Shown here: positions 33,049-57,476 of the stretch, piece by piece | How positions within the stretch are numbered: position 1 is the first letter of the stretch | Layout of the letters: every line of letters begins with the position of its first letter | From: Stackebrandtia albiflava | GTDB taxonomy: Bacteria; Actinomycetota; Actinomycetes; Mycobacteriales; Micromonosporaceae | NCBI RefSeq assembly: GCF_007994225.1 | Contig: NZ_VLLL01000006.1 | Span: 1,054,001 to 1,118,000 of the forward strand | DNA length: 64,000 nt | Direction: 5' to 3' | Translations under genes and position numbers: made by a program | The notes under the pieces: generated by a model | What the model was told of the DNA's origin: nothing | Seen by the model: only the letters and a program-made list of their open reading frames with translations | Database searches by the model: none

Positions 33049-33129
33049 ACTGCGCGTGGTGTGCGTTGTGGACGGTGGTGCTGTTCCCGGGAGGCGCGGC
33101 CGTTCGGCCGGTGACGGAAGGGACTCTCC

Positions 33130-33308
33130 GAGGCCGTCTTCGATCCTGCTGTTCTGCTGCGCGTCGCCCGGTCGGCGCCTCGCGGCGTTGTCGAAGGCAA
33201 TGCTGCTGAGGCGTCCTGCGTACAACACCGGTACGCAGGACGCCCTTCGCCTTGCGAAGGCACTCGACCGGACACCGCTCGCGACGAATGAGGACCGAAG
33301 ACGGCCTC
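33130..33308. mobile_element. Short non-coding element with terminal inverted repeats, copy 1
   Basis: A 179-bp element bounded by inverted repeats (GAGGCCGTCTTCGATCC at the left, its complement with one mismatch at the right). It is strongly similar to 57261-57427. Internally it has a hairpin of about 14 bp (33210-33223 with 33231-33244) with loop AACACCG. It carries an insertion of about 15 bp near 33200 that the other copy lacks. It contains no gene. Size and ends suggest a MITE-like element mobilised by an unknown transposase; a structured RNA is the alternative. Confidence 0.7.
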
Positions 33309-33340
33309 TAAGGTGGAGTCCCACCGGCGAGGAGGTCCAG

Positions 33341-33895
33341 ATGGCATCGGGTAACGACAGGGGCGACGACACCGACGATCTGGTCAGGCGCTGGGCGTCG
33401 GTGGTTCCCGGGATCGATCCGCGCGTGGAGGGCGTGGTGGACCGGCTGTTGATCTGCGCGCGTTACCTGGACCGGCTCGCCGCTACCCTGGCGGCGGAAC
33501 ACGACATCCAGTTCTCCGACTACGAGATCCTGGCGCGGCTGTTCTGGGTGGGGGAGCCGCACCGGTTGCGGCCCAGCCAGTTGGCGGCCGGGACCATGAC
33601 GGCGGCGACCACGATCACCAGCCGCCTGGACCGGTTGCAGCGGCGGGGGTTGATCAGCCGGGTACCCGATCCCACCGACCGGCGGGCGATGGCCGCCGAG
33701 TTGACCGACGAGGGCGGGGAACTGTTCACGCGCATCGTGGAACGGCAGGCGGAGGCGGAGCGGCGGATCTTCGGGGACGTGAGCCCGGCCCGCCTGGACC
33801 GGTTGGCGGGCCTGCTCAGTGAGACGTTGACGGTTCTGGAACGCCACCTCGGACCGCCACCGCGTCGCGTCCGGCTGGCGTTGTCCGAGGACTGA
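33341..33895 (+). CDS. MarR family transcriptional regulator
   Basis: A 184-residue winged-helix regulator. The recognition region reads LRPSQLAAGTMTAATTITSRLDRLQRRGLI, and the wing has the family signature RVPDPTDRRAMAAELT. The ATG at 33341 has GGAGG 7 bp upstream. It starts just after the mobile element. The downstream gene is the frameshifted Old Yellow Enzyme on the opposite strand, so its target is not obvious. Confidence 0.88.
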   Translation: MASGNDRGDDTDDLVRRWASVVPGIDPRVEGVVDRLLICARYLDRLAATLAAEHDIQFSDYEILARLFWVGEPHRLRPSQLAAGTMTAATTITSRLDRLQRRGLISRVPDPTDRRAMAAELTDEGGELFTRIVERQAEAERRIFGDVSPARLDRLAGLLSETLTVLERHLGPPPRRVRLALSED

Positions 33896-33956
33896 CGGCG
33901 ACACCGGGACGTCACCGAGTGCGGATACGCCGGGCATCGGAGGGGCGGCGTGCCGG

Positions 33957-35046
33957 CTATGTGAGCGACGGGTAGTCGGTGTAACCGGTGGCGTCGCCCC
34001 CGTACATGGACACGTCCCGTCTGACCGGATTCAGTGGGGCGCCGGTCCGCAGCCGCGCGACCAGATCGGGGTTGGCCAGGAACGGACGCCCGAAGGAGAT
34101 CAGGTCGGCGCCCGCCGCCAGCAGCTCCGCGGCGGCGCTCGTTCCACCATCGGCGGGAAGCGGCAGTCGGCGGCCGAGCACGGGATTGGCGATGAGGGGT
34201 GCGGGCCAGCGCCGCCGGAGTTCCCCGAACAGCGGTGCCGCCGGGTCGGCGTAGCCGACGTGGAGGTACGCCGGGCCGACGGGCGCGAGCGCGTCGAGCA
34301 ACGCGGGGAAGAGCCGGTCGGCGTCGTCCATGGCGATCCCGTTGATGAGGTTGTCCGGTGAGATGCGCAGGCCGGTCCGGCCCGATCGCATCGGCCACCG
34401 CCTCGACCACTTCGACGACGAACCTGATGCGGCGCGGGACCGATCCGCCGTAGGCGTCGGTGCGGTGGTTGGTACTCGTGGCGAGGAACTGGTTGAGCAG
34501 GTATCCGTTGGCGGAGTGGACCTCGACCCCGGCGGCTCCCGCCCGGACGGCGAGCCGCGCCGCGGCGGCGAAGTCCGCCACCGTCTCGCGGATGTCGTCG
34601 GTGGTCATCTCGCGTGGCACCGGGGCGTCGCGTTGCCCACTCGGCGTCTGGACGGTGCCCGGCAGTGCGATCGGAGAGGGCGCCACCGGCACGAGCCCGC
34701 TGTTGTCGGGATGGCCGATGCGGCCCCCGTGTTCCATCTGCAGAAAGATCCGGCCGCCGGCGGCGGTGACCGCCTCGGCGACGTGACGCCACCCGGCGGT
34801 CTGGGCCTCGGTGAACAGGCCGGGGATGCCGGGATAGGTGTATCCGACCTGGTTCGGGGTACTCGCCTCGGCGATGATGAGCCCGGCGGTGGCGCGCTGC
34901 GCGTAGTACTCCGCCATGATCGGTGTGGGTACCCCGTCGGCGGTGGCACGGTGGCGGCTCATCGGTGCCATGACCAGCCGGTTCGGCAGGTCGAGTGAAC
35001 CGAGGCGTGTGGGTGCGAAGAGGGGCGCTGTGGTGGAGGTGTCCGT
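33957..35046 (-). pseudogene. Old Yellow Enzyme-type flavin oxidoreductase, frameshifted
   Basis: An NADH:flavin oxidoreductase/alkene reductase of the OYE family. The first part has LVMAPMSRHRATADGVPT, HGGRIGHPDNSG and EVHSANGYLLNQFL, and ends near VVEAVADAIGPDR. The rest continues in another frame as TGLRISPDNLINGIAM to ADLISFGRPFLANPDLV. The break is near 34380 in the sequence CCGGACCGG. Adding one CCGGA unit would restore a family-like reading, so the defect looks like loss of a 5-bp tandem unit, or a sequencing error. The likely start is the GTG at 35046. It is divergent from the MerR gene, its probable regulator. Confidence 0.85.
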
Positions 35047-35061
35047 CACGCGACTACCGTA

Positions 35062-35085
35062 GAACTTCACATCGGCGTCAGGTTC
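35062..35085. promoter_or_regulatory. Possible MerR operator between divergent genes
   Basis: GAACTT, 12 bp, AGGTTC is an imperfect dyad in the 59-bp gap between the OYE and MerR genes. MerR proteins often bind dyads within the promoter of a divergent target gene. Confidence 0.35.
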
Positions 35086-35105
35086 AAGGAAATGTGAGGC
35101 AGCCC

Positions 35106-35480
35106 ATGCGTATCGGTGAGCTCGCTCGGCGGACCGGAGTGAGCACCCGTTCGTTGCGCTATTACGAGCAGCGTGGGCTGCTGGAATCCGCGCGCACGCC
35201 CGGCGGGCACCGCCAGTACGCGGAGTGGACGGTGGACCGGGTGATCCGCATTCAGACGTTGTTCGCGGCGGGGCTCCACAGCGACGTCATCGCCGGCCTC
35301 CTGCCGTGCATGCACGACCACGACGGCACTCCGAACGAACGGGCCACCCACACCCTGGCCGAGGAGCTGTCCGCCGAAGCCGAACGCATCGACCGTGCGA
35401 TTGCCGACCTGACCCGTAGCCGGGCCGTCCTGGACGAGGTCATGACGACCGCCCGGCTCGGTCGCGACGACGGATCGTGA
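35106..35480 (+). CDS. MerR family transcriptional regulator
   Basis: A 124-residue regulator. The N-terminal winged helix (MRIGELARRTGVSTRSLRYY then EQRGLLESARTPGGHRQY) is clear, followed by a coiled-coil dimerisation helix. One Cys is present (LLPCMHDHD), which is not enough to call a metal sensor. The layout with the divergent OYE gene suggests control of that enzyme in response to an electrophile or redox signal (inference). Confidence 0.9.
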   Translation: MRIGELARRTGVSTRSLRYYEQRGLLESARTPGGHRQYAEWTVDRVIRIQTLFAAGLHSDVIAGLLPCMHDHDGTPNERATHTLAEELSAEAERIDRAIADLTRSRAVLDEVMTTARLGRDDGS

Positions 35481-35652
35481 GGGCGGGACCTTGAGCGACG
35501 GCCGCACCTCCCGCCGGGACCCGGCGGCGGTGTTCCTCAAGTGGCCTTGCGGTTCGGCGCCCGGTGTCGCCGGTGTGGACGCCCGGTGCATCGCCGGCGA
35601 GTACATGGACGTGGACCGCCGGTTCGCCACCCACATGCCGCAGGTCACGGGG

Positions 35653-35679
35653 TTATCCACAATCCCCACGTCATCCACA
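35653..35679. promoter_or_regulatory. Two DnaA-box-like sites
   Basis: TTATCCACA (35653-35661) matches the E. coli DnaA-box consensus exactly, and TCATCCACA (35671-35679) follows in the same orientation. No dnaA, dnaN or AT-rich unwinding region is near, so this is not an origin on present evidence. Confidence 0.4.
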
Positions 35680-35987
35680 GGCGTGCGGCTACGGGGATGA
35701 CACCACCCTGGATCCGGTTCTACGCTCGAAGTATGGGGCGGAGGTTGGAGGCCCCCTGAGTCCAGCGGAGTTGCGGGGCGGGGACGGTGTGGGCGCTCGC
35801 TCCTACGGCCTTCTGATCGGGTCGGTGCCGATCGCCTGCCGCCTGCCCGTGCCGCCGCTTCGGCTGTCTGGTGCACCGGTGATGGTGACGGCGAACGGTC
35901 TTCTGTGACGTGTCGGCCGTCCGTCTCTGTCGGTGTGAACGCGGTGTTCCTTTGTCGTGCAACGAGAGCGCGTCGTCGGCCGCTCCA

Positions 35988-36022
35988 TTACTACGATTTC
36001 GGATAGTACGAAATCGTGGTAA
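35988..36022. promoter_or_regulatory. Long inverted repeat upstream of the C39-like gene
   Basis: TTACTACGATTTCG and CGAAATCGTGGTAA (one mismatch in 14 bp) flank a 7-nt spacer. The AT-rich dyad ends 100 bp before the gene start and looks like an operator for a dimeric regulator. Confidence 0.5.
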
Positions 36023-36122
36023 CTTAATCCACGTTCGTCAATATATGGCTTCGTGCGCCCGGCCCACCCGAGTCGGGGCCGGCGATCCGGTAGCCCACCG
36101 ACCGAGCCGACAAGGAGCGAGA

Positions 36123-37022
36123 ATGACACGCACCCGAATACTGCGGCGGATCACCGCCGTCCCGATCATCCTGGCCGCGTTGTTCGCCGGCCTACTCGTA
36201 TCGGCCTCCCCGGCACACGCCGACGCATACGCGACGGTGGGTAACACCGACGGCGACGGCCTGAACGTCCGGCAGGGTCCGAACACCTCCAGTGCGGTGG
36301 TGGGTTCGGTGGACACCGGTGACGCGGTGTGGATCGCCTGCCAGGCGTACGGCGAGTACGTGACGAACACGTACGGTTTCACCTCCAACATCTGGGACTA
36401 CTCGACCGCGCTGGGCGGCTACCTCGCCGACGCGTACATGGCGACCGGCCACGACGGCCGCATCCCCGGCGTCCCACTCTGCGACGACGATCCGCCCTCC
36501 GACGGTGACATCGTTCCGATCCGGCAGAACCAGGGACAGTGGACCCAGTGGGAGGACTGCGGGCCGACCAGTGTGGTCACCGCGCTGCTCGCGATCGGCG
36601 TGACCCCGCACGGGTACAGCGCCGGGTACCCCGTCGAGGCGATCCACCGCGCCCGCGAGGACATGGGCCTGCAACGCGACGTCCGCACCGGCGGTACCAA
36701 CGAGAACCAGGTCAACACGGCCTTCGCCTCCTACGGGCTCAGCAGCTACACGAGTTGGAACTTCGACAACTCCCTGGCGCACGTGCGAAACGGCGGTGCG
36801 GCCGTGATGGCCGGTAACACCCGTGGCCTGAACTGGCCGGTGAACGTCGCCGACCCGAACGGGGTGCCGCACTTCCTGACCGTCGCCGGATACGACTCCG
36901 GTTCGGGCTTGTACATCGTGCTCGACCCGATCGCGGTCAACAACACCGTCAAGTACGCCAGCGCGGCGACCCTGTGGGCGTACTGGGACAACTACCTGGG
37001 ACGCGCGGCCGTCCTGGTCTGA
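36123..37022 (+). CDS. Secreted C39-like cysteine peptidase with SH3-like domain
   Basis: A 299-residue exported protein. The signal peptide ends near residue 33 (SPAHADAYA). A bacterial SH3-like region (about 36-115, including LNVRQGPNTSSAVVGSV) is followed by a C39_2-type papain-fold domain with DCGPTSVV (Cys146) and PHFLTVAGYD (His250); LDP near 268 may supply the third residue. SH3-like domains in such proteins often bind peptidoglycan. C39-like proteins cleave leader peptides or cell-wall peptides; the substrate is unknown. AAGGAGCGAGA precedes the ATG. Confidence 0.82.
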   Translation: MTRTRILRRITAVPIILAALFAGLLVSASPAHADAYATVGNTDGDGLNVRQGPNTSSAVVGSVDTGDAVWIACQAYGEYVTNTYGFTSNIWDYSTALGGYLADAYMATGHDGRIPGVPLCDDDPPSDGDIVPIRQNQGQWTQWEDCGPTSVVTALLAIGVTPHGYSAGYPVEAIHRAREDMGLQRDVRTGGTNENQVNTAFASYGLSSYTSWNFDNSLAHVRNGGAAVMAGNTRGLNWPVNVADPNGVPHFLTVAGYDSGSGLYIVLDPIAVNNTVKYASAATLWAYWDNYLGRAAVLV

Positions 37023-37159
37023 CCTTCCCCCTCGCCGGCGGCGCACCGTGCCGGGTGCGCCGCCGCCCCTGTCCCTTCGCGCCTGCGATCTCCGGCGGCC
37101 CGAGACCTTCCCGCGACGTCCCGGGACGAATAGCATCGGGTGGGCAAGGAGATCGCATC

Positions 37160-39841
37160 ATGACCTCGATTGACCCCCTGGTGCCCCGAGTCGGGCTCAT
37201 GCGCCGGATCCGCCGGATCCTCGCCGAGCGCCACCGCGTGGTGGTGTGCGGTCCCGCGGGCGTCGGCAAGTCGGTGATCCTGGAACAGACCGTGCCGCCG
37301 GGCGAGACCGCGCTGCGGGCGTTCCCCTCCGCGGACTCCGTACCGCTGGCGGGACTGGCGGAGCTGTTCGCCACCGTCGCCCCCGAACGGATCGCGGCCC
37401 TTCCGCCGCCTCGCAGGAACGCCGTAGAGGTGCTGCTGCGGACGCGCGACGGCGACTCGGATCCGACGGCGCTGCGGCTGGGCCTGCGTGACCTGTTGAC
37501 CGGTCTGAGCGCCGACCGTCCCGTGTGGCTGGTCGTCGATGCGGCGGACCACTGCGACCCCGGGACGGTGGACTCGCTGTCGCAGCTACTCAGGCACCTG
37601 CCGCCGGAACGGGTCCGGGCGGTGTTCGCCGGTCGTGAACCCGGTCTGGCGCACCGCTTCGGCCTCCCCGCCGACCAGGAGGTCACCGTGCCGTTCTGGT
37701 CGCTGGCCGAGACCAGTGAACTGCTGGCCCGGTTCCGCCTTCCGAGCCGGATCGTCGCCGAGACACACCGCGCCAGCGGTGGGCTGCCGGGTTCGGCCCT
37801 GCGGATGACGACCGCCTCGACCGGGAACGTCGAGGCCGCCCCGCCGGCGTACCTCGCGGAGGAACAGTTGGCGACCCTGTCGCAACGCACCCGGTACACG
37901 CTGCTGACCGCCGCGTCGGCCCTCGATCCGACCGTGGAGTTGTTGCAGCGCGCCGGACGCACGCACGCACGCCGGGATCTGGTGGCCGCCGAACGTCTCG
38001 GGCTCGTCCACGTCGACGCGGCCGGCCGGATCGTCTTCCACGCCGAGGCCACGGTGGAGACGCTGCGCGACGGCGCGTCGACGCGCACGGCGTCGCGCGC
38101 GCATCGGGCGCTCGCGGGCGTCGTCGCCGACTCGGTGGCGGCGGTCCGGCATCTGGCCCTGGCGGGCGACGACGCGGTGTCGGCGGCCCGCCTGGACGAG
38201 GCCGCGTCGGAGGCGATCGGGCGGGGCGACCCGCTGCTGGCGGCCGAGTTGGCCTTGTTGGCGGCGGACCGTACCCCGGCCTCCGAGGACGCAGCGGTGG
38301 TCGCGCGGTTGTTGGTCGCGGCGCGGCACGCCAGTGCGGCCGGGCGACTGGGACTGGTGGAGCGGGCCGCGAAGTCGGTGTGCCGCAGGGCCACCGTCCC
38401 CGCGCAGCGGATGGAGGCGCTGCTGGCGATGATCAACGCCGTGGGTCAGCACTTCGACGGTGCGCAGTGGGCGTTCGCCGCGGCGGCGTTGGAGACCGAG
38501 ACGGAACCGGCGTTGCGGGCCGAACTGCTGATGTGGCAGTGCTGGCGTGCGTACATAAGGGACGGTGACGTGGCGGGCGCGCTCGCCCTCGCCGAGCAGG
38601 CGTCGCGCGTGTGCGGTGACGCGGGAGAACCGCAGCAGCGCATGCAGATCCTTACCATGAAGGGCAGGATGCAGCGGTCGCTGGGGGACGTCGCCGCCGC
38701 CGAGTCGACCCTTTCGGAGGCACTGGAGGCGTCGGACGGCCCCGGTACCGAGATCGCGGCCTCGGCGCAGTTCGCGATCGCGCGGCACCGGTTGTTCGAC
38801 GACCGGCTGACCGAGGCCCGCGATGACTTCACCGTGTTGCTGTCGGAGGCGCGGCGGGCGGGCGAGTTCAAGGGCCGCATCGAGGTGCTGCGCGGCCTCG
38901 CCGAGGTGGAGGCGCGACTCGGTGACTGCCGGGACGCGCGGGCGCACCTCGACGAGGCGTTGACCCTGCTGGCCGACGGCGACCTGTCGCCCGCGCCGGT
39001 GTGGTACCTGTCGGCCCTGGTGGACGTCGCGGCGGGCGACTTCGAGTCGGCGGTACGCGCCGCCGGGCGGGGGCTGCGGTCCGCCCGTGAGGAGCGGGAC
39101 GTGCTGTTCACCGCGCGCGGGCTGTTCGCCACGGGAGTGGCGTTGTCGCGAGGCGGCGACCCGGCCGCGGCGGTGCCGCCGCTGCGGGAGGCGGGGGAGA
39201 TCGAGACCGGAACCGGGACCGTCGATCCGTCGATCCTGTTGTGGCGGCCGGAACTGGTGGAGGCGTTGGCCGGCAGCGGTGAGGTGGAGCAGGCGCGGCG
39301 GGAGCTGTCGCGGGTCCGGGAGCTGGTGGCCCGGATGGGGCTGTCCAATGTGATACCGCGACTCGACGTGGCGGAGGCGGCGTGTCTGGCCGCCTCCGGT
39401 GAGACGGTGTCGGCCGTCGACCGGCTCGCCGTCGCCACGGAGGGTTTCGCCCGGTACGGCCTGCGGATCGACGTGGGCCGGTCCCTGTTGGCCGCCGCCC
39501 GGTTGGAGCGGCGCCGGCGCCGCAGGGCCGTGGCGCGCCGGCTGCTGGCCGAGGCGCGTCGGGCGTTCGAGGAGTGCGGCGCCGAGGGCTGGGCGGCGGT
39601 CGTCGACTCGGAACGGGACCGGGTGGATGCGGTATCCGGTGACCGGGTGGACGGGTTGACGCCGGGGGAGGCGCGGCTGGCGGAGCTGGTCGCCGACGGG
39701 GCGTCGAACCAACAGGCGGCCACGGCCCTGGGAGTGAGCGTGAAGACGGTGGAGGCGACGCTGACCAGGATCTACCGGAAGTTGGGCGTGCAGGCGCGGG
39801 TCCAGTTGGCGGGTCTGCGCGGCCGGCGCACCCGGGTGTAG
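37160..39841 (+). CDS. LuxR-type regulator with N-terminal ATPase domain
   Basis: An 893-residue regulator of the LAL/STAND type. It has a P-loop GPAGVGKS at 31-38, LWLVVDAAD-like Walker B sequence near 130 (VWLVVDAADHC), a long TPR-like helical region and a C-terminal LuxR helix-turn-helix (LTPGEARLAELVADGASNQQ, then VKTVEATLTRIYRKLGV). Such proteins are large signal-responsive activators of secondary metabolism or catabolic genes. AAGGAG precedes the ATG. The target is unknown; the secreted protease downstream is one candidate. Confidence 0.9.
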   Translation: MTSIDPLVPRVGLMRRIRRILAERHRVVVCGPAGVGKSVILEQTVPPGETALRAFPSADSVPLAGLAELFATVAPERIAALPPPRRNAVEVLLRTRDGDSDPTALRLGLRDLLTGLSADRPVWLVVDAADHCDPGTVDSLSQLLRHLPPERVRAVFAGREPGLAHRFGLPADQEVTVPFWSLAETSELLARFRLPSRIVAETHRASGGLPGSALRMTTASTGNVEAAPPAYLAEEQLATLSQRTRYTLLTAASALDPTVELLQRAGRTHARRDLVAAERLGLVHVDAAGRIVFHAEATVETLRDGASTRTASRAHRALAGVVADSVAAVRHLALAGDDAVSAARLDEAASEAIGRGDPLLAAELALLAADRTPASEDAAVVARLLVAARHASAAGRLGLVERAAKSVCRRATVPAQRMEALLAMINAVGQHFDGAQWAFAAAALETETEPALRAELLMWQCWRAYIRDGDVAGALALAEQASRVCGDAGEPQQRMQILTMKGRMQRSLGDVAAAESTLSEALEASDGPGTEIAASAQFAIARHRLFDDRLTEARDDFTVLLSEARRAGEFKGRIEVLRGLAEVEARLGDCRDARAHLDEALTLLADGDLSPAPVWYLSALVDVAAGDFESAVRAAGRGLRSAREERDVLFTARGLFATGVALSRGGDPAAAVPPLREAGEIETGTGTVDPSILLWRPELVEALAGSGEVEQARRELSRVRELVARMGLSNVIPRLDVAEAACLAASGETVSAVDRLAVATEGFARYGLRIDVGRSLLAAARLERRRRRRAVARRLLAEARRAFEECGAEGWAAVVDSERDRVDAVSGDRVDGLTPGEARLAELVADGASNQQAATALGVSVKTVEATLTRIYRKLGVQARVQLAGLRGRRTRV

Positions 39842-39979
39842 GCGGCGGCCGTGGGGGGTGGCGCAAGGGTTTTCCCCACTAGCAGGCGTACACGGCGTTC
39901 TCGTAGCGTCGCGGCCACCAACCAGTTAACTGAGGCATTCAGATGTCTGACTGTCTCGGTCTTCGCCCGGAAGGTACCG

Positions 39980-41758
39980 ATGACACCTCTACGCCCCCTC
40001 GCCGCGCTCGGCGCGCTGGCGGTCGGCACGGCACTGGCCGTGGCCACCGCCCCGGCGGCACACGCCGAACCCGCCACCGGCCCGATCCTCATGGCCGACG
40101 CCCCCGACCGCATCCCCGACGTGTACCTCGTCGACCTCGCCGACGACGCCGCCGTCGCCACCCGCGCATCCGTCACCGCGACCGCCGACCGGTTGACCGA
40201 CGCCTACGGCGGGCAGCTGCGCTTCACCTACCACGCGGCGATGACCGGTTTCTCGCTGGAACTCGACGAGGCCGCCGCGAAACGGCTCGCCGCCGACCCG
40301 GCCGTGGAGTCGGTCGAGGCGGTCGGCATGGCCACGCTCGACGGCACCCAGACCGACGCGCCCTGGGGCCTCGACCGCGTCGACCAACGCGACCTGCCCC
40401 TGAACCAGACCTACGAGTACCCCGACAGCGCCGGAGAGGGCGTCACCGTCTACGTGCTGGACACCGGCAACCGGTTCAGCCACCGCGACTTCGGTGGCCG
40501 CGCCTCCGCCGGCCCCGACTTCATCACACCGGGCGGCGGTTCGACCGACTGCCACGGCCACGGCACCCACGTCGCCTCCACGGCGGTCGGCACCACGTAC
40601 GGCGTCGCCAAGCGCGCCGAGACGGTGGCGCTGCGGGTCCTCGACTGTGGCGGCTCCGGCCCCTGGGACGGCATCATCGGGGCGGTCGACTGGGTGACCG
40701 ACAACGGCGTCACACCGTCGGTGGTCAACATGAGCCTGGGCGGCAACGGACAGCAGCCCGCCCTGGAGCAGGCCGTCCGCAACTCCATCGCCGCCGGTTA
40801 CCAGTACTCGCTGGCCGCCGGGAACGACAACGCCAACGCCTGCAACTTCACCCCGGCCAGGGTCGGGGAGGCGATCACCGTCGGCGCCACCTCCAGCAAC
40901 GACGGCCGCGCGAGCTTCAGCAACTACGGCAGTTGCCTGGACGTCTTCGCGCCCGGCAACCAGATCACCGCGGCCTCTCACCGCGGTGACACCCTGACGA
41001 CGACCATGAGCGGCACGTCGATGGCGGCGCCGCACGTCGCCGGGATCGCCGCGCTGTACCTGGCGGAGAACCCGTCGGCCTCGCCCGCGCAGGTCCGCAA
41101 CGCCCTGGTGAACAACGGCAGCACCGGCAAGGTCGGCAATCCCGGATCCGGTTCCCCGAACGTGCTGGGCTACACCGGTTTCATCGACGGCGGCCCGCCG
41201 CCCACCGACGACTTCTCGGTCTCGTTGTCGCCCGCCTCGGGCGAGGTGGCACCGGGCGGCTCGGTCGGTGCGGACGTGTCGATGTCGGTGACCTCCGGTG
41301 CCGTACAGGACGTGACCCTGTCGGCGTCCGGCCTGCCTTCGGGAGCCACCGCCACCTTCGACCCCGCCGAGACCACCAGCGACGGCGACGCCCGGCTGAC
41401 CATCGCGACCTCGACGGGCACGCCCGAGGGCGCCTACACCGTGACGGTGACCGCCACCGGCACCGAGGCCACCCGCACCGCGACCTTCCGGCTCCAGGTG
41501 GGCGACGGCGGCGGTGACGGCCCGACGGCCGCGTTCACGGTGAACTGCTTCCAGGGCATCGCGATCTGCATGTTCGACGCCGCAGGCTCGCAGGGCGACA
41601 TCGCCTCCTACCGCTGGGCGTTCGGTGACGGGGCCACCGGCCAGGGCGTCTTCACGCACCACTGGTACGGGGCCGCCGGAACCTACCGGGTGACGTTGAC
41701 CGTCACCGACACCTCCGGTGCCACACACACCACCACCCGCACCGTCACCGCCGGTTGA
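39980..41758 (+). CDS. Secreted subtilisin-family serine protease with PKD domain
   Basis: A 592-residue extracellular protease. It has a signal peptide (about 1-29, ending AAHAE) and an inhibitor I9 propeptide (about 45-122). The S8 catalytic domain has Asp161 (VYVLDTGNRF), His194 (CHGHGTHVAS) and Ser347 (MSGTSMAAPHVAG). An Ig-like linker and a C-terminal PKD-like domain (YRWAFGDGATGQG) follow. It has no C-terminal membrane anchor, so it is not a mycosin of the nearby ESX locus. GGAAGG precedes the ATG. Confidence 0.93.
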   Translation: MTPLRPLAALGALAVGTALAVATAPAAHAEPATGPILMADAPDRIPDVYLVDLADDAAVATRASVTATADRLTDAYGGQLRFTYHAAMTGFSLELDEAAAKRLAADPAVESVEAVGMATLDGTQTDAPWGLDRVDQRDLPLNQTYEYPDSAGEGVTVYVLDTGNRFSHRDFGGRASAGPDFITPGGGSTDCHGHGTHVASTAVGTTYGVAKRAETVALRVLDCGGSGPWDGIIGAVDWVTDNGVTPSVVNMSLGGNGQQPALEQAVRNSIAAGYQYSLAAGNDNANACNFTPARVGEAITVGATSSNDGRASFSNYGSCLDVFAPGNQITAASHRGDTLTTTMSGTSMAAPHVAGIAALYLAENPSASPAQVRNALVNNGSTGKVGNPGSGSPNVLGYTGFIDGGPPPTDDFSVSLSPASGEVAPGGSVGADVSMSVTSGAVQDVTLSASGLPSGATATFDPAETTSDGDARLTIATSTGTPEGAYTVTVTATGTEATRTATFRLQVGDGGGDGPTAAFTVNCFQGIAICMFDAAGSQGDIASYRWAFGDGATGQGVFTHHWYGAAGTYRVTLTVTDTSGATHTTTRTVTAG

Positions 41759-50300: not shown

Positions 50301-51278
50301 GTCCACGTCTCCACCGTCCACTATCACCAGCACGTGCGGGCGGTCGTTGAACATGCCCTGTTCGTCGATGTTGCGGGACCGCTTCGCCAACTCGTCCGAC
50401 AGCAGTCCCTCCAGCTCCGTCATGTCGGACAGGACGAGCCGCCGCGCGCCCAGGGCGTCGGTGTGCCGGTCGTGGCTGGCGTGCGGCAGCCACTTCAGCC
50501 AGTCCCAGTGCGGGAGCGTGTGATCGGCGACGACGGCCGCGACCAGCAGGTCGTCGGGGGAGTGGAAGGCCGCCGCCTGGCACAGCATCGCCCGGGCGAG
50601 CGCGCGGTTGGCGTCCTCGTCACCGGTGAACACCAGGCGCCGGAAGCCCCGCAGTTGCAGGGCCATCGGCATGTTCGGCAGGTTGGAGTGGGCGCGGACG
50701 AACCGGCGCAACGCCAGGGCGCTCATCGGTTCCAGGTCCTCGACGGGCTTGGTCTCGGGCGTGACCATCTTGACGGCGAGGCGCTGCCGTCCGACCGACA
50801 CCCGGATCTCGCAGAAGTCCCGGTCGGTGTACCGGCGTTCCCACAACCTGGTGGAGCCGACTAGCGTCCACAGTGTCGCGGGCGCCGGGTGACGCCACTG
50901 CATCGCGGAACGCTGCTGACCGGCGGCGCGGCGCACCTGCCGCCGGGTCTGCGACAGGTAACGCATGTAGTCGCGGCGGGCGATGGTCTGTTCGCCCTTC
51001 TGGTCGCTGCCGCTGCTGGCGAACGTGCCGATGAACATTCCCAGCATCGCGACGCCGAACAGACCGCCGATGACCATGGTCATGACACCGCCGCCGCGAC
51101 CGGCGTACATGAACACCATCGCGCCGACCATCGCGAGCATCGGCAGCATCATCAGAAGCTGCGCCATGCTGCGCTGACCGGGGATCGGCAGGTCGGGGGG
51201 CGGTTCGAGCATCAGGTCGCCGCCGGGCATCGACGGGCCCTTTCGGCGTGGTGGCCGGGTGAAGATGATCCTGCTCAT
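47322..51278 (-). CDS. eccC: Type VII secretion ATPase EccC
   Basis: The FtsK/SpoIIIE-type motor of an ESX secretion system. The 1318-residue product has two membrane helices (about 39-58 and 66-86) and then three ATPase domains. Their P-loops are GATGSGKS (479-486), GGTQSGKS (833-840) and GDVESGKS (1117-1124). Walker B is best in the first domain (LLVICDEF, about 588-595), while the second reads VIDGW without the catalytic acidic pair, as often seen in the degenerate later domains. It is a single chain, not split into EccCa and EccCb. The start MSRIIFTRPPRR is typical and has AGGAACC upstream. It is divergent from eccD. Confidence 0.96.
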   Translation of the reverse strand: MSRIIFTRPPRRKGPSMPGGDLMLEPPPDLPIPGQRSMAQLLMMLPMLAMVGAMVFMYAGRGGGVMTMVIGGLFGVAMLGMFIGTFASSGSDQKGEQTIARRDYMRYLSQTRRQVRRAAGQQRSAMQWRHPAPATLWTLVGSTRLWERRYTDRDFCEIRVSVGRQRLAVKMVTPETKPVEDLEPMSALALRRFVRAHSNLPNMPMALQLRGFRRLVFTGDEDANRALARAMLCQAAAFHSPDDLLVAAVVADHTLPHWDWLKWLPHASHDRHTDALGARRLVLSDMTELEGLLSDELAKRSRNIDEQGMFNDRPHVLVIVDGGDVDADCDLAGSGLSGVTVLDLSGTVPRYPREWLLQLETDPLEDTLTMTLSGRRSPLGTPDRLSTEEAASFARRMARYRPATVTSASEPMAVSAELPDLLAIGDVAHFNPHDVWRPNRPTADKLSIPLGLDPQGGKIILDIKESAQGGMGPHGLIIGATGSGKSELLRTIVTGLAITHSSEELNFVLVDFKGGATFATLDRLPHTSAVITNLEDELHLVDRMADAISGEMTRRQELLRASGNFVSQRDYEKARRAGAELNPLPSLLVICDEFSELLSAQPEFIELFVMIGRLGRSLGVHLLLASQRLEEGKLRGLDTHLSYRIGLRTFSAMESRVVLGVPDAYELPNSPGHAYLKIDTTTMLRFRSAYVSGPYRQRTNADGQVVQRDRMLPFQAGYLPAPARPAAPVKQSSEAETLDDINNSLMAVLTRRLENQGPPAHQVWLPPLGDSPALSTLYPGLLADAQWGLRPMGWNGPGKLKVRAGIVDKPYEQRRDSLELDLSGAGGNVLVVGGTQSGKSNTLRTVMCSLAISHTPVEVQMYCLDFGGGSLRGLAGLPHVGGVVGRKQVDEVRRTVAEMSTLLDEREARFAAAGIDNMASYRRRKAAGEFADDPFGDAFLVIDGWPTIRNEFEDLEDDIQAIAQRGLAFGVHLMLATNRWTDMRAALRDLMGTRLELRLGDPSESEINRRAAKNVPERAPGRGISPDAMQMLVALPRIDDRSTVDDLTEGVTRLVGAVAESWRGPVAPPVRLLPDNVELAQVPPQPTSHVVPIGLNESHLAPVGLDFTAEPHFLAFGDVESGKSNLLRMIARQIARRYTPDQARLLVVDYRRSLLGEIPESHLAGYAAGAADGRKLLKDADEAIRTRLPGSEVTPEQLRARSWWQGPELYVLVDDYDIVSGGSVNPVSEILDLLAQARDVGLHLILTRRMGGASRAMYEPVIQRLRELQSPGLLMSGNKEEGLLLGDVRATPRPPGRGMLVRRSGNELVQTAWAPPLV

Positions 51279-51409
51279 GAGAGGGGTTCCTAGCGTGAGG
51301 GCCGACCGCTGCATCATATGCAAGACGATTTGGTACTAGATTGTCTGCAACGAAGAAATTTCGATTCGTCGTTGTCGTGATCGCGCCGGCCCGAGGAGAA
51401 CCCACCCCC

Positions 51410-52807
51410 ATGAGCGTCACCGACAGACTGTGCCGGGTCACGGTCGTGGCCCCCAACACCAGGATGGACGTCGCGCTGCCCGACCACGTCCGGCTGTGTG
51501 AACTCCAATCCGACCTGCTGCAGCACGCCGCCGACGGACCCGGCGGCGAAGACGTCGTCGAGGACGGCGCCAGCAACGGCGGCTGGGTCCTCACCCGGCT
51601 CGGCGGCGCGCCCCTGGACCCGAACCTCACCCCGGCGCAACACCACATCATGGACGGCGAGGAACTGTACTTCTCGCCCGTCGCCCAGGTGGGGCCGGAG
51701 GCGGTGTTCGACGACGTCATCGACGCCATGGCCACCGCCAGCGGCGATCGGGGCGGCAAGTGGCAGACCGCCACCAGCCAGGTTTTCGGCACCGTCGTCG
51801 GTACCGTCCTGCTGCTCGGCGCCGCCGCCGCGATCCTGTTCACCGGGACCGAGGCGGCCATGTGGACCGGGTACGGGATCGCCGCCGCGCTGCTGGCGGC
51901 CTCGGTCGTGTTCGCCCGGGCACTCGGCCGGATCGGTGAGGCCACCGTCGTCGGCCTGCTGTCGGTCGTGTACGGCTGGGTCGGCGGGGCGTTGTCGCTC
52001 GGGGAACTCCCGGCGATGGCGGACCTCAACGCGCCCCGGCTGATGGTGGCGGGGGCCGCCGCGGCGGTGTTCGCGGTCGTCGCCGGAATCGGCATCCCCA
52101 TCTCGGCGCCGGTGTTCTCCTCCGCCGCGCTCGCGGCCGCCGGACTCACCGGGGCGGCCGCGTTGTGCACCTTCGTGGGCGCGACCCCCGCCGAGTCGGG
52201 CGCGGTGGTCTCCACCGTGTTCGTCGGACTCATCCCCGCGATGCCGATGTTGTCGTTCCGGGTGGCGCGGCTTCCCATGCCCACGATCCCCCGGTCACCG
52301 CAGCAACTCCGCTCCGACACGCTCAAAGTGGACAGTGAACTGGCGTTGCGGCGCAGCGAACGCGCCGACCAGCACCTCACCGGGATGCTCGCGGCGGCGG
52401 CGATCGTGACCGCCGGTTCCCTGGTGTTCCTGGCGATGGCGCCGAGCTGGCCGACCGTGCTCATGACGATCCTGTTGACCCTGCTGGTGCTGATGCGGGC
52501 CAGGATCTTCCTGACCGTGCGACAGCGGATGCCGTTCCTGCTGGCCGGTGTCGTCGGTATCGCCTCGCTCGCGACGTCGATGTGGGTGCACGCCGATCCC
52601 GCCGACCGGTTCCTGTACGTGGTAGCGGTGCTGGTGGGCCTGGCGGTGATCGCGCTCAGCTTCGTCCTGGGCATCGCCGGGAAGCGGGTCTCGCCGATCT
52701 GGGCGCGGATGGTGGACATCGTGGAGGTCATCCTGTTCATCACGATCGTGCCGCTGACCCTGTGGGTCTGGAACGCCTACTGGTGGGTCCGCACTGTCAA
52801 CGGCTGA
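51410..52807 (+). CDS. eccD: Type VII secretion integral membrane protein EccD
   Basis: A 465-residue protein with an N-terminal ubiquitin-like domain (about residues 5-90: RVTVVAPNTRMDVALPDHV, then GGAPLDPNLTPAQHHIMDGEEL in two parts) and eleven predicted membrane helices. EccD dimers line the ESX membrane complex. GAGGAG precedes the ATG at 51410; the open frame before it is unlikely to be translated. The divergent gap to eccC is 131 bp and should contain both promoters. Confidence 0.93.
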   Translation: MSVTDRLCRVTVVAPNTRMDVALPDHVRLCELQSDLLQHAADGPGGEDVVEDGASNGGWVLTRLGGAPLDPNLTPAQHHIMDGEELYFSPVAQVGPEAVFDDVIDAMATASGDRGGKWQTATSQVFGTVVGTVLLLGAAAAILFTGTEAAMWTGYGIAAALLAASVVFARALGRIGEATVVGLLSVVYGWVGGALSLGELPAMADLNAPRLMVAGAAAAVFAVVAGIGIPISAPVFSSAALAAAGLTGAAALCTFVGATPAESGAVVSTVFVGLIPAMPMLSFRVARLPMPTIPRSPQQLRSDTLKVDSELALRRSERADQHLTGMLAAAAIVTAGSLVFLAMAPSWPTVLMTILLTLLVLMRARIFLTVRQRMPFLLAGVVGIASLATSMWVHADPADRFLYVVAVLVGLAVIALSFVLGIAGKRVSPIWARMVDIVEVILFITIVPLTLWVWNAYWWVRTVNG

Positions 52808-52825
52808 CCCGGCCCCTCTGTTTCG

Positions 52826-52931
52826 CGGCTTGGTTGGCCGTACGACGATCGACATACCTCGAATAGGCCCGGATGTCCGATTTTTCACCGTCATATGACC
52901 AACCAAGCCGGCATTCTGACCAACCAAGCCG
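52826..52931. repeat. CGGCTTGGTTGG repeat, one forward and two inverted copies
   Basis: CGGCTTGGTTGG at 52826-52837 is followed about 60 bp later by two copies of its complement (near 52899-52910 and 52920-52931). The first copy could pair with either inverted copy, giving two alternative stems. It lies after eccD and before the next lipoprotein gene and may end eccD transcription or regulate the downstream gene. Confidence 0.6.
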
Positions 52932-53002
52932 ACAGGGGGATACCGCCCACCTCGATCCGGTGCGATGCTCGGCCTCCCGTTCACCGTCCGAAGGGGTACG
53001 TG

Positions 53003-53974
53003 GTGGAACACTCCACGCCGACGCGCCGAATCGGTGCGGCCCTGGCCGCCTGCCTCGCCGCAGTGTCGCTGACCGCCTGTGGCGCGGATCCGTCGGAGTC
53101 CGTACACGCACTGTCCTGGGCGTCGGAGGACACGTACTACTACCTGGACCGGCCCATCCTATGGGAACCCGGGTACCGGACGATCGAGGCCACGCCGGAG
53201 CTGTACCTCGCCTCGCCCGACGATCCCCGGCAGCCCGTGGACGACACCCTCGGCATACCGTGTGGACCGTCCAGTACGGTCCAGGTGTTGTCCGGTGACA
53301 CGGTGTTCGTCTCCGGCTGGTGCTCATACCTGGAGAGCGACCGTTTCATCACCGCGCGCCTGGATGTGACGACCGGCCGCGCGGTACCGGTGTTCGACTG
53401 GGAGTACCGATACCGGGTGGTCACGACGTGGACCGGCGGCGACGGCGACGGCTGGGTGTCGTACGGCGAGGAGGACGGCTGCGCCGGTGTCGCCCGCGTC
53501 GAGGACGGCCGACTCGTCCCCTGGCACTGGGCCGGCGACCCGGACATGGTGGTCGCGGAGGAGCCCGGCACCGGTGAGTACGGCTGCTGGTACGGCGTCC
53601 GCGTCGGAGACGTCGCGGCCTCACACGACGGCACGGATGTCGTGTTCCTGGCCGAATCCGGGCTGTTGCACGCCGATGGAGCGCCCGACTCGGACGAGTG
53701 GTCGCTGTACCTCATAAGCGGAGACCTGGCCACGATCGAGTGGCCGCTCGGTGCGGTGTCCCCGTACGATCCGATGTGGTGCGACGACGTGGTGTTCATG
53801 ATCGTTCGAGACGACACGGGGGAGTCCGCGCTGTGGCGACTGGACCCGGCCACCGGTGCGTTCGCGCGGTTCCGGGACGATGTCGGCTCGGCCGCGTGTT
53901 CCCCCTCCGGTGAACGGATCGCCGTGCAACCGGAGTCCGGTTCCATCGAGATCTTGTCGCTCACCGGCGAGTGA
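53003..53974 (+). CDS. Putative lipoprotein, 323 aa
   Basis: The N-terminus is a lipoprotein signal (TRRIGAALAACLAAVSLTAC) with the lipidated Cys near residue 26. The rest is a soluble, Trp- and Asp-rich domain with recurring strand-turn phrases, suggestive of a beta propeller (LYLISGDLATIEWPLG, ALWRLDPATGAFARF). I do not recognise a family. The adjacent GTGs at 53000 and 53003 are preceded by GAAGGGG; the in-frame ATG at 52895 lies in the repeat and is unlikely. Confidence 0.7.
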   Translation: MEHSTPTRRIGAALAACLAAVSLTACGADPSESVHALSWASEDTYYYLDRPILWEPGYRTIEATPELYLASPDDPRQPVDDTLGIPCGPSSTVQVLSGDTVFVSGWCSYLESDRFITARLDVTTGRAVPVFDWEYRYRVVTTWTGGDGDGWVSYGEEDGCAGVARVEDGRLVPWHWAGDPDMVVAEEPGTGEYGCWYGVRVGDVAASHDGTDVVFLAESGLLHADGAPDSDEWSLYLISGDLATIEWPLGAVSPYDPMWCDDVVFMIVRDDTGESALWRLDPATGAFARFRDDVGSAACSPSGERIAVQPESGSIEILSLTGE

Positions 53975-54020
53975 ACGTGTCCGCCGACGTGCCCGCCCGT
54001 CCGAGTACCGGGAGACGACC

Positions 54021-54428
54021 TTGACCCGTCTCGTCCTGCCGTCGATCTGGTTCCTCGCCTCGTTCATCGTGCTCGTGCTTCAGGTATCGGTGTGGCTGCC
54101 TCGGCATTGGAACGGTGAACGGCGCGGTATGGACCTGCGGTTCCACCGCTACGATCGCGGGCCCGACGTCTTCGCCGCGGTGCGACGCCTCATGCCGTGC
54201 TCGGTACTGTCGGTCGTCGCGTCCCTGTCGTGGTCTGCGGCGGCGGTGTGGTCGGCCGCGCGCGGTGCGGGGGCCGGTGTCGACGTGGTGTCCGTCGCGC
54301 TGTGGATGGCCGGTTTCCTGGTGTTCATCGTGTTCTCCCTGTCCGCCTTGGCGGTGTTCTGTTTCAACCAGCCGAAATGGATGGTCGCTCCGAGTCATCG
54401 AGGGGATCGCGGTGTCCTCCAGGGTTGA
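54021..54428 (+). CDS. Small membrane protein, shorter paralogue of the gene at 57495
   Basis: A 135-residue protein with three hydrophobic segments and no known family. It starts at a TTG after GGGAGA. It is clearly paralogous to the protein encoded at 57495: both have PRHW(N/D)G, a middle helix with a Trp-Ser pair, and FxNxPK(W/L)(M/V)VAPxxR near the end. It stops where the paralogue continues for about 50 more residues with a further helix, so it may be truncated. It overlaps the next gene by 17 bp. Confidence 0.6.
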   Translation: MTRLVLPSIWFLASFIVLVLQVSVWLPRHWNGERRGMDLRFHRYDRGPDVFAAVRRLMPCSVLSVVASLSWSAAAVWSAARGAGAGVDVVSVALWMAGFLVFIVFSLSALAVFCFNQPKWMVAPSHRGDRGVLQG

Positions 54429-54933
54429 GACCGGCGGTGGAGACGTCGACGGGACGCTCCGCCGGGCCGTCACCGTCCTCGCGGCCCGGCCGGGTGTCCG
54501 CCACCACCGGGACGTCATCGCCCCGGACGGGTTCCGGGACACGTTCTCGGGCGGCGGCTTGGAGGCGATCGTGATCTGGCAGCCCGGCCGGTGGCTGGGC
54601 CTGGACCTGTCGATACGGCTGCCCGGTGAACCGGTCGCGTACTACTGGATCGACACCGACCTGTACGACGTGTCCAAGCCCGAACAGGCCGACTTCCTGC
54701 GGGAGGTGGCAGCTGACATCGTGGCCCTGTTGGGGATGATCGCGCGCCGCACGCTGCCGGTCGGCCGGTGGCGGGGAAGACCCGCGTTCGTCGTACCCGA
54801 CGGGGAGCGTTTCCGCCGGGTGGTGCGAGGCCGTATCGGTTGTGCGGCGGCCGGTTTCGACACCATGGCGGACGCCCTCGCCGGAGGGGACTGGTTCTGC
54901 CCCGACCTGTCGTCCCGAGGAGTGCGCCGATGA
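54412..54933 (+). CDS. Hypothetical protein, 173 aa
   Basis: A soluble protein without a recognised family. Features include WQPGRWLGLDLSIRLPGEP and a C-terminal Arg-rich end. The GTG at 54412 has GAGGGGA upstream and overlaps the previous gene; its stop overlaps the next start as ATGA. The three genes form one coupled unit. The copy of this module at 57495 lacks this middle gene. Confidence 0.6.
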   Translation: MSSRVETGGGDVDGTLRRAVTVLAARPGVRHHRDVIAPDGFRDTFSGGGLEAIVIWQPGRWLGLDLSIRLPGEPVAYYWIDTDLYDVSKPEQADFLREVAADIVALLGMIARRTLPVGRWRGRPAFVVPDGERFRRVVRGRIGCAAAGFDTMADALAGGDWFCPDLSSRGVRR

Positions 54934-55388
54934 CCCGCCGAGACGACATGAGGCGAGGGATCCCGGTGTTCCTGGCCGCGACCGGAACCGTCGTGGGCCT
55001 CAACCTCCTGGTCCTGTGCGCACTCGCACCCGGGCACGTCGCCTGGAACATCGTGCTGACCGCAGCGGTTCTGTTCGCGTTCCTTCCGGGCCGGCCGTTC
55101 GAGTCGTGGTGGGTGTCGCTGTGCCGACTGTCCGCGGTGGCGGGAGCGGCGATCGTCGCCACGAGCCTCATGAACGGCGCCACCACGTTCTACGGGGAAC
55201 TCTTCGCGGGGCTCATGCTGAGTCCGTGTCTCGCGGTGGCGTGCCGGGAGATCAGGGCGATCCTCGAACGATCCGGCCGGCCCCGGGGCGGCGTCCTGCA
55301 CTCGCTGCTTCGTCCGTCGCGCGAACCGAGATCCGGTGGCGGGAAAGGATTCGTCCGAAGGGTGTCGGCGCATCCCGACGACGAATGA
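54930..55388 (+). CDS. Membrane protein, paralogue of the gene at 58046
   Basis: A 152-residue protein with about four membrane helices and no known family. It shares the layout and phrases of the 58046 product: ANLN-type first helix (VGLNLLVLCALAPG), then FLPGRPFESWWVSLCR and a final ACREIRAILERS before a basic tail. The tail here is about 40 residues longer. It is coupled to the upstream gene by ATGA. Confidence 0.6.
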   Translation: MTRRDDMRRGIPVFLAATGTVVGLNLLVLCALAPGHVAWNIVLTAAVLFAFLPGRPFESWWVSLCRLSAVAGAAIVATSLMNGATTFYGELFAGLMLSPCLAVACREIRAILERSGRPRGGVLHSLLRPSREPRSGGGKGFVRRVSAHPDDE

Positions 55389-55493
55389 GGCGGCCGGTCC
55401 TTCCACATCCCGTCCACAGGCGGGCGCGACACCGTATGGCGTGCTTATGGCCGTCGCCCAGACCATGAGGCCCCCGAATGAGGAAGGCCCGAC

Positions 55494-56321
55494 ATGAACC
55501 CGATGAGCAGGAGACGCGCCCTGGCGTTGGCCGGTGGTGCCGTACTCGGAGCCGCCGGACTCGCCGGAACCGCGGCGGCGACCGACTGGAAACGCCTCGT
55601 CGTGATAACCGCCAACATCGGCCGGAACAACCCAGGCCAACGGGAACGCGCGATCCGCGACGTCCGCCACGCCGTCAAGATCGACGGCAGGCTCACCAAG
55701 CCGCTCGTCGGGTGGCAGGAGATCCAGGGCGCCGACCCCGACGCGATGGAACCCCGCTGGATCAACCAGTACTTCGGTTCCTCCTACCGGAACATCTTCG
55801 AACATCACGACTCGCCCGCCCGGCAGATCCCCATATCGGTGCCGAAGGACTACGACGTCCTGGAGACCCGGGTGACGTTCTGCCACGGCGGGAAGGCGAA
55901 GGTGTCGCCGTCCCGGTACATCACACAGGCCTTGCTGGCCCACGCGAACGACCCGCGTCTGCGGTTCGTGTTCGCCAACACCCACTACGTCTCGGGCGCC
56001 TGGAACGGAAAGCAGGACTCGTACGAGCAGTGGCGGGTGGACAGTTGGCGCACCCACTTCCGCAAGCACCGTGACAACGTCCTCGCGTACTGGCGGGGCC
56101 GTGGCCTGCCGGTGATCTGGACCGGCGACGTCAACCGCAACCCGATGCCGCTGCTACTGCCGAACCACGAGAAGCGGGCGTTCGCACGGGGAATCGACCA
56201 GATCGGGTGGGTGCCCGGCAGCAACGGGACGCAGATCCGGTTGCGGTGGACCAAGACGGTGCCCATGTACGTCGACGGCCACGACGCCCGGGTCGCCGTC
56301 CTCCAGGTGCGCCGCGTCTGA
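55494..56321 (+). CDS. Exported endonuclease/exonuclease/phosphatase-family protein
   Basis: A 275-residue protein with a twin-arginine-like signal (SRRRALALAGGAVLGAAGLA). The fold of the EEP superfamily (DNase I, sphingomyelinase) is supported by an ordered set of motifs: TANIGRNN, WQEIQGAD with the metal-binding Glu, FANTHYVSG, TGDVNRNPMP and a late VDGHDARVAV with the terminal His. The substrate could be nucleic acid or a phospholipid. AGGAAGGCCC precedes the ATG. Confidence 0.75.
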   Translation: MNPMSRRRALALAGGAVLGAAGLAGTAAATDWKRLVVITANIGRNNPGQRERAIRDVRHAVKIDGRLTKPLVGWQEIQGADPDAMEPRWINQYFGSSYRNIFEHHDSPARQIPISVPKDYDVLETRVTFCHGGKAKVSPSRYITQALLAHANDPRLRFVFANTHYVSGAWNGKQDSYEQWRVDSWRTHFRKHRDNVLAYWRGRGLPVIWTGDVNRNPMPLLLPNHEKRAFARGIDQIGWVPGSNGTQIRLRWTKTVPMYVDGHDARVAVLQVRRV

Positions 56322-56411
56322 CCGGCCCGGCGGCGCCGGGGATCGCACCGGCGCCGCCCCGGGGTTCCGGTGGTCGCGTATTCCGGCGGGCCGTCGGCTG
56401 CGCGGGGACCG

Positions 56412-56440
56412 TTGCCGCTTCGGGGCGGGTCGGGTACCTT
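56412..56440 (+). promoter_or_regulatory. Predicted promoter of the lipoprotein gene at 56517
   Basis: TTGCCG (56412-56417), 17 bp, TACCTT (56435-56440). The -10 region and about 35 bp after it are nearly identical to those before the LamG gene (58491-58532), which supports both as real. Confidence 0.6.
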
Positions 56441-56516
56441 TCGAAAGCCAATGATCATCCCGGCACGGTGATCGCCGTGTGGAGTCCACCGTGTGTGGAC
56501 TCGGTCGCTTCCGGGA

Positions 56517-57134
56517 ATGACGATGTGCCCACCTCATGCCCCGCCAGTGCGTGGAGCCACGGCCCGATGTGCGATCGCGCGACCGGTCGTGCGGGCCACG
56601 GTGGCGCTACTCGCGGCATTGCTGGTCCTCACAGGCTGCCTCATCCCGGGTGAGAAGTTCTATCCCGTGGGTCTGGCGAAGGTGGGTGGCGTGTATGTGC
56701 TGTTCGCACCCATGTGCGAGGGCGAATCCCTGACCGAGATCGTCATCTCCTCGAACGTGGGGAACCCGGAGAATCCTTCCGAACCACGCGAGATCGACTG
56801 GTGGTCCGGCAACCGCCCCGCCGACGAGTCCACAGAGCGCGGCTGGGTGGTTCTGGGGGACGACAGCCGGTTCCTCGAAAGCGGCGGAAACGACGACGTG
56901 TCCGAATGGCCACGCGACCTGCGTGTGGAACTGGGGCACGACAGCCCGGGAGGCGGATTCCGGTCGATCACGGGCGCGATCCGAATCGACGACACCGTAC
57001 CCGGATACGCCCCGGACGCCGACATCGAGGAGATCGAATACCTGTTCGGTGATCCAAGGACGGACGACCCGCTCGAACTGTGGACCCCGAACCGGATGCG
57101 CCTCGAAACCGGGTGCGCCGGCCAGTACCTGTGA
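56517..57134 (+). CDS. Putative lipoprotein, 205 aa
   Basis: A signal with lipobox LVLTGC (Cys near residue 41) is followed by an acidic, Trp-containing soluble domain with no known family. The start MTMCPPHAPP is chosen because GGGAATGACGATG and the following bases match the start of the LamG gene at 58610, so the two genes share a common 5' region. Downstream lie the membrane-protein remnant and the mobile element. Confidence 0.65.
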   Translation: MTMCPPHAPPVRGATARCAIARPVVRATVALLAALLVLTGCLIPGEKFYPVGLAKVGGVYVLFAPMCEGESLTEIVISSNVGNPENPSEPREIDWWSGNRPADESTERGWVVLGDDSRFLESGGNDDVSEWPRDLRVELGHDSPGGGFRSITGAIRIDDTVPGYAPDADIEEIEYLFGDPRTDDPLELWTPNRMRLETGCAGQYL

Positions 57135-57166
57135 GGAGGAACGGCGGTGGACGTATCGACATGCCG

Positions 57167-57476
57167 GCGCGGTTCGAGGCGATGCGCTCCGCGCCGACCC
57201 CGATCCGGACGCGCAGGTGGTGACCCGTCCGAGCTGGTTCGCGATCCTGTTCCCCACCTGAGAGGTTGTTTTTGATCCTGCTGTTCTGCTGCGCGTCGCC
57301 CGGTCGGCGCCTCGCGGCGTTGTCGAAGGGTCCTGCATACAACACCGGTATGCAGGACCTCCTCCGCCTTGCGAATGCACTCGACCGGAACACCGCTCGC
57401 GACGAACGAGGATCAAAGGCAGCCTCTTACGCTCCTGACGTTCGTCGCCGTCATCGTCATCATCGAGAACCGTTGA
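57167..57476 (+). pseudogene. Decayed 3' remnant of the repeated membrane-protein family
   Basis: The stretch encodes the end of the family found complete at 62065 and 62847: ARFEAMR, then in another frame ADPDPDAQVV and SWFAILFPT, then, beyond the mobile element, TLLTFVAVIVIIENR and a stop. If bases 57261-57427 are removed, the reading continues in frame as FAILFPTCTLLTFV, which aligns without gaps to FAILLPIATLLTFV in the 62065 protein. The 5' three quarters of the gene are missing. Confidence 0.8.
57261..57427. mobile_element. Short non-coding element with terminal inverted repeats, copy 2
   Basis: A 167-bp element with ends AGAGGTTGTTTTTGATCC and GGATCAAAGGCAGCCTCT, which pair throughout if G-T wobble is allowed. 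It contains the hairpin TCCTGCATAC/GTATGCAGGA (57331-57340 with 57348-57357) with loop AACACCG. Most of its length is near-identical to 33130-33308. It interrupts the membrane-protein remnant. I see no target-site duplication and no coding capacity. Confidence 0.75.

Follow-up and report, generated by a model that had tools for sequence, protein, structure and literature searches.

A MITE-like family of actinobacterial elements with variable ends and a conserved, covarying hairpin core

MITEs are usually pictured as elements with conserved ends and a dispensable interior. The actinobacterial element described here resembles several known systems. The ERIC/IRU sequences of enterobacteria, as set out in the available portions of the sources, are likewise intergenic imperfect palindromes, there of ~127 bp, with TA ends and many copies (PMC2229807, PMC10969869), and REPINs, according to the part of the source available, are likewise palindromic non-autonomous elements that carry compensatory changes (PMC3116915). 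IS5-family insertion sequences of the NF033580 type occur in the same phylum and have ends such as AGGGCCTGTCTGACAAAT, which in several of them adjoin CTAG or TTA.

Two copies of the element lie in the window, a term used here for the whole stretch of 64,000 nucleotides that was analysed, C2:1054001-1118000 of the source genome. The preliminary description of this DNA had reported two elements that share sequence, and both are present where it placed them; their ends have been set by a covariance model, R1, which was built from 34 aligned full elements of the family.

33129-33309, + strand: copy 1 of the element, 181 bp; R1 match of 121.5 bits, E 2.9e-23
33224-33230, + strand: apical loop AACACCG of copy 1, from the sequence and the predicted fold
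57261-57427, + strand: copy 2 of the element, 167 bp; R1 match of 164.4 bits, E 8.2e-33
57261-57279, + strand: left terminal inverted repeat of copy 2, pairing with 57409-57427 in the predicted fold
57409-57427, + strand: right terminal inverted repeat of copy 2, pairing with 57261-57279 in the predicted fold
57311-57375, + strand: core of copy 2, conserved across 104 elements, with covariation in its stems
57341-57347, + strand: apical loop AACACCG of copy 2; 59 of 104 elements have this loop together with its closing pairs (TACAACACCGGTA)
57337/57351: two-sided change, A-T in copy 2 to G-C in copy 1
57273/57415 and 57267/57421: two-sided changes, T-A in copy 2 to C-G in copy 1
19364-19404, + strand: L31-Actinobacteria ribosomal protein leader, scoring 50.3 bits (cut-off 35)

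The core of copy 2 comprises the stem CTCGCGGCG / CGCC-TT-GCGA, a conserved TTGTCG that faces CCTC, and the apical hairpin on top. Copy 1 carries 15 extra bases in the left arm of the central hairpin. It is flanked by a PIN-domain gene (end at 33048) and a MarR-type gene (start at 33341), both named by their Pfam matches. The DNA folds of both copies are far better than those of dinucleotide shuffles (z -7.84 for copy 1 and -5.20 for copy 2; none of 200 shuffles per copy did as well). Of the 65 pairs in the fold predicted for copy 2, 53 are identical in copy 1. In three, both partners are altered with pairing kept; in six, a single partner is altered and pairing persists if G-T is accepted as a pair; two are broken and one is unmappable. 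The three two-sided changes are those originally reported, namely two terminal-stem pairs and one pair of the central hairpin, and the loop AACACCG is indeed identical in the two copies. A second reported central-hairpin change, from C-G to G-C, corresponds to one of the two “broken” pairs, and its outcome is set by the placement of the 15-base gap. The statement that changes are often matched on both sides describes a real pattern in strong words, as it holds for three, or at most four, of the 11 changed pairs; the two copies alone make a modest case for compensation.

The wider family provides a larger sample. BLAST places the element at ~40 sites in the source genome. R1 finds 53 matches there with E ≤ 0.1, of which 48 reach E ≤ 0.001; truncated copies and copies with internal deletions are among them. 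The 34 full elements behind R1, taken from this and other genomes, are 162-168 bp long and align end to end with a paired end helix; like bacterial MITEs they are short, non-coding and bounded by terminal inverted repeats, and for 32 of their 39 predicted pairs one or more sequences carry a two-sided change. The element is typically ~165 bp long (up to 199 bp in the source genome, where the central arms are longer) and consists of terminal inverted repeats of ~20-25 bp, imperfect arms and a core hairpin, in which the unpaired letters conserved across 104 elements are the TTGTCG opposite CCTC, a TT bulge and the 7-base loop. Of the genomes sampled, R1 matches 72 of 150 from the GTDB family and 12 of 296 from the phylum, the source genome being included in both counts, and among the matches listed all span the whole model. 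Presence among the 150 genomes is patchy within genera, as expected for a mobile element. Streptomyces plasmids carry copies as well. Among plasmids in general, four queries matched 12, 10, 62 and 16 records, the 16 at a threshold of E ≤ 1 and probably including chance hits. Three annotated plasmid regions (L168, L170 and L171) show no transposase, and a further region, L169, bears no annotation. Copy 2 as a query found no match among phage records, viral contigs held no exact match to one core pattern, and no description of the family was recognised in the open-licence literature.

Two kinds of variant were also observed. Elements adjoin directly at L163 (1503-1662 and 1664-1825; G458) and at L051 (1479-1638 and 1639-1787; G002), and four loci hold very short hairpins of 47-61 bp that lack the core and contain little beyond the two element ends.

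C2:1605464-1605524, source genome: short coreless hairpin (L076)
C5:208263-208323, source genome: short coreless hairpin (L078)
C2:689680-689740, source genome: short coreless hairpin (L079)
C52:2823-2869, genome G015: short coreless hairpin (L176)

The dispersal of the element resembles that of bacterial MITEs. In two Micromonospora genomes the copies are near-identical within subfamilies and have different flanks, and sister genomes provide clean empty sites, without just the element, for two Micromonospora insertions (L183 and L181). The empty site of L202 is less clean, comparisons for L185, L187, L190 and L196 had no clean outcome either way, and the source genome has no alignable empty site among its sister genomes. 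Insertion sites have the form CT-AG, or CTN-NAG in the source genome. The target duplication is TA or none in Micromonospora, and in the source genome the bases due to match under a 3-bp duplication do so in 10 of 29 copies, where 7.9 are expected. At one orthologous site, L017 (C1:1016139-1016337 of the source genome) and L295 (G002, C63 near 8407-8495) lie in the same place before the same gene and share the right boundary, with opposite orientations and ~64% likeness once one is flipped.

Covariation was assessed with an in-house script in the manner of R-scape, using a tree-preserving null. The family-wide alignment holds 150 of 156 matches, or 104 elements in 103 distinct rows once antisense duplicates are dropped, and 22 of its 13,203 column pairs are significant; 19 of these belong to the 39-pair structure and the other three lie within one column of it. 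With 13 copies of the source genome removed, the number of significant column pairs is 27, of which 19 belong to the structure and four more fall within one column of it; the remaining ones share the same palindromic register. Since the model alignment leans towards its own structure, structure-blind MAFFT controls were added, in which nine of 12 significant column pairs fall in the structure; the 34-row alignment gives seven, all in the structure. Covariation above a tree-preserving null indicates that at some stage in the element's life its paired form plays a part or is restored, and the earlier proposal that folding is under selection is partly borne out at this family-wide scale, through the search of this genome and related actinomycetes, the alignment and the covariation run that had been suggested with it (48 matches in the source genome, 22 significant column pairs across the family). 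Significant covariation, as expected of a structured RNA family, is thus present across the family and absent within the source genome, where none of the 39 structure pairs is significant among 35 aligned copies, and no pair is significant among 24 distinct Micromonospora copies.

The timing of compensation has been traced by Fitch parsimony on one tree, with G-T counted as broken. Among the 35 copies of the source genome, terminal branches carry nine double, compensated changes and 53 by which Watson-Crick pairing is lost (19 of them to G-T), whereas internal branches carry 12 compensated changes against 14 that are not (Fisher p 0.003). The 24 Micromonospora copies behave similarly, with ratios of compensated to uncompensated changes of 1:8 on terminal and 9:1 on internal branches (Fisher p 0.001). 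A subset of 13 copies from the source genome shows no contrast (internal 1:4, terminal 5:17), and the whole set, with its long terminal branches, shows a weak one (internal 106:66, terminal 136:132). Paired and unpaired sites change about equally on the terminal branches of the source genome (1.29 and 1.34 changes per site), and paired sites change less on those of Micromonospora (0.14 vs 0.27). Compensation is weak in recent changes, and the claim that the copies are more constrained than a decaying MITE is not supported for the source genome, given the lack of significant pairs and the mostly uncompensated terminal changes. Many copies with non-compensatory stem differences, which the preliminary description regarded as evidence against its view, are found for recent changes but not for older ones. 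We read these counts as resident copies that mostly decay as MITEs do and lineages that stayed paired as they went on spreading. In G115, the next-to-terminal pair is A-T instead of G-C in three of 12 near-identical copies (L305, L309 and L311), both of its bases having changed.

A host RNA or terminator, in which a transcribed hairpin would act as an mRNA end or processing site and be selected location by location, is an improbable explanation. The very stable predicted folds of copies 1 and 2 agree with it, as does placement in Micromonospora, where, in gene calls based on third-position GC rather than a gene finder, convergent genes flank 14 of 25 copies and a called stop codon contains an end of 18 of 25. 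A count by orientation gave 14 right and five left ends at stop codons, and no bias is claimed. However, copies in the source genome lack such placement (7 of 30 between convergent genes), and the stop-codon positions may be no more than a consequence of the CTAG target, which is scarce elsewhere, with four sites in 43,293 flanking bases, two of the four at stops. The predominance of uncompensated recent stem changes argues against per-location selection as well. A helix selected as one RNA strand is expected to show a clear G-T excess, and no strong excess is seen: non-Watson-Crick cells are G-T or A-C at 148:116 (p 0.06) and 188:160 (p 0.15) in two alignments, a near balance that does not point to one RNA strand, and the less even 34-row alignment (66:42, p 0.03) is the sole comparison leaning to G-T. 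Rfam holds no match for copy 2 at E ≤ 1 and gave, for ten other loci, a single weak miRNA match (24 bits; cut-off 105). Host RNA function was dropped as the leading idea on the Rfam results, the G-T balance and the uncompensated recent changes; the folding signal at family scale is real, and it is no evidence of a host role for copies 1 and 2.

The main rival explanation is mutational, and compensation can also arise in this way. Template switching in an imperfect palindrome would copy one arm onto the other and sometimes invert the loop; it is described, in the available portions of two sources, as homogenising arms, inverting spacers and yielding compensatory changes (PMC8604942, PMC8794818). 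This account is tentative, as is its corollary that the elements are ordinary MITEs whose arms homogenise each other and need no functional folded form. It gains from L202 (G170, C6:3297-3461), the one element of 104 whose apical loop is inverted relative to its arms, reading ATACCGGTGTTGTAT instead of ATACAACACCGGTAT, which would be a footprint of the arm-copying process outlined in the abstract of PMC8604942. Pair-restoring single changes are common in the source-genome set (27 internal and 20 terminal), and the orthologous site L017/L295 holds the element in opposite orientations, both of which fit template switching. Across distant genomes, nevertheless, the conserved mismatches persist, as do the TT bulge and the TTGTCG and CCTC that face each other, which argues against unchecked arm copying, as such copying should erase these features, and recent copies mostly retain their broken pairs.

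Similar cores occur with unrelated ends. Cores at least 85% identical are combined with ends at most 50% identical in 107 of 5,356 element pairs (not independent of one another), as in L063 and L068 (core 96%, ends 39%) and L192 and L182 (core 92%, ends 34%); chance identity for ends is 26%, and end identity is counted ungapped by column, so that a shift lowers the value. The source genome itself holds a second subfamily of five copies with a related core and unrelated ends, AGAGCTCCTGAATC. The variable ends may reflect either exchange or fast evolution with arms copied from each other. In a bolder reading, which we consider rather unlikely, the inner hairpin would be the real unit of persistence, a DNA module that spreads through the phylum by way of new terminal repeats and successive transposases and needs its folded form at each spread.

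The ends of the family are shared with some IS5-type elements. DDE_Tnp_1 genes have been found in six of eight carriers searched, and several carriers contain IS5-type elements of about 880-1046 bp with ends of the same style, for four of which the transposase fragments match NF033580 (NCBIfam) below the cut-off because the fragments are partial. When seven of nine delimited insertion sequences (14 ends) were compared with the family, four of the seven (six of the 14 ends) matched element ends at 16-18 of 18 bases, a level that 0 of 420 shuffles reached in each of two null modes (maximum 15). All of these matches are between genomes and none within a genome, and the delimited insertion sequences contain no R1 match. 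The family shares ends with IS5-family elements, as an IS5-derived MITE should. An interior derived from a parent is not seen, and a parent insertion sequence with matching ends was recognised neither in the source genome nor, for one end type, in G015; the full-length transposon that the preliminary description considered as a source of the interior is not seen in these IS5-type elements, which share ends without it. Several findings weigh against this reading: no insertion sequence was found to bear the ends of a subfamily of its own genome, the carriers G004 (a sister genome) and G170 have no DDE_Tnp_1 match, and the family has no clean target duplication whereas three insertion sequences show TTA on both sides. 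The single DDE_Tnp_1 place in the source genome is a decayed IS5-type element with other ends (L080, C7, 868-1794; ~920 bp). Its end GGGCCTGTCTGACAAAT, with the preceding A, is identical over 18 bases to the end of copy L152 from another genome.

Candidates for a full-length parent were sought among 427 end-like sites with ≤2 mismatches in the source genome, of which the best ~100 of the 427 were seen and the perfect ones inspected. The perfect sites outside recognised elements comprise one truncated copy, one degenerate copy and two ~60 bp hairpins, and no parent; in G015, all 10 exact sites of one end type lie in elements or in the 47-bp hairpin. Single-strand transposition by a Y1/RAYT-type transposase, as in REPINs, is highly improbable. 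The absence of a clean target duplication, the conserved bulges, the palindromic, compensated character of REPINs noted at the outset and one partial Y1 match in the source genome would fit such a mechanism, but Y1_Tnp occurs in three of the 14 genomes searched, is missing from the other 11, and is absent from seven carriers with at least 15 copies among the matches listed; RAYT mobilisation was rejected on this distribution. The partial Y1 match (C1:1757367-1757528) lies ~3 kb from L107 (C1:1754240-1754405), an element of the second subfamily, a proximity that can be chance with ~50 elements in the genome.

Taken together, the family is on balance probably a non-autonomous, IS5-type MITE family of actinobacteria, with a conserved hairpin core kept paired in spreading lineages. 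Its elements would insert at CT-AG-like sites, which in Micromonospora often fall within stop codons, and would most likely be moved in trans by IS5-family transposases that recognise their ends, which may themselves be exchanged. The core, which is not part of those insertion sequences that share the ends, would stay base-paired in the lineages that keep spreading, and its folded form, as single-stranded DNA or a cruciform, would most likely aid some step of movement. The element thus combines the ordinary way of life of a MITE with an unusual design, a conserved structured core within variable ends.

Should selection maintain the pairing, forming a hairpin would be a step in the life cycle of a widespread element; should templated repair do so, the family cautions against taking significant covariation in palindromic DNA as proof of a functional RNA. 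The comparison of terminal with internal branches offers a cheap separation of host function from selection during spread. To our knowledge, ERIC/IRU are unrelated in sequence to the actinobacterial element. They belong to another phylum, and variable ends around a conserved core are not described for them in the available portions of the sources (PMC2229807, PMC10969869). REPINs are associated with RAYT genes and have conserved ends (REPs), whereas here Y1 is mostly absent and the interior is conserved, and IS5-family insertion sequences differ in their length of about 880-1046 bp, their transposase genes and their lack of the core hairpin. The actinobacterial element reverses the usual picture of a MITE, as its ends change and its inner hairpin is conserved.
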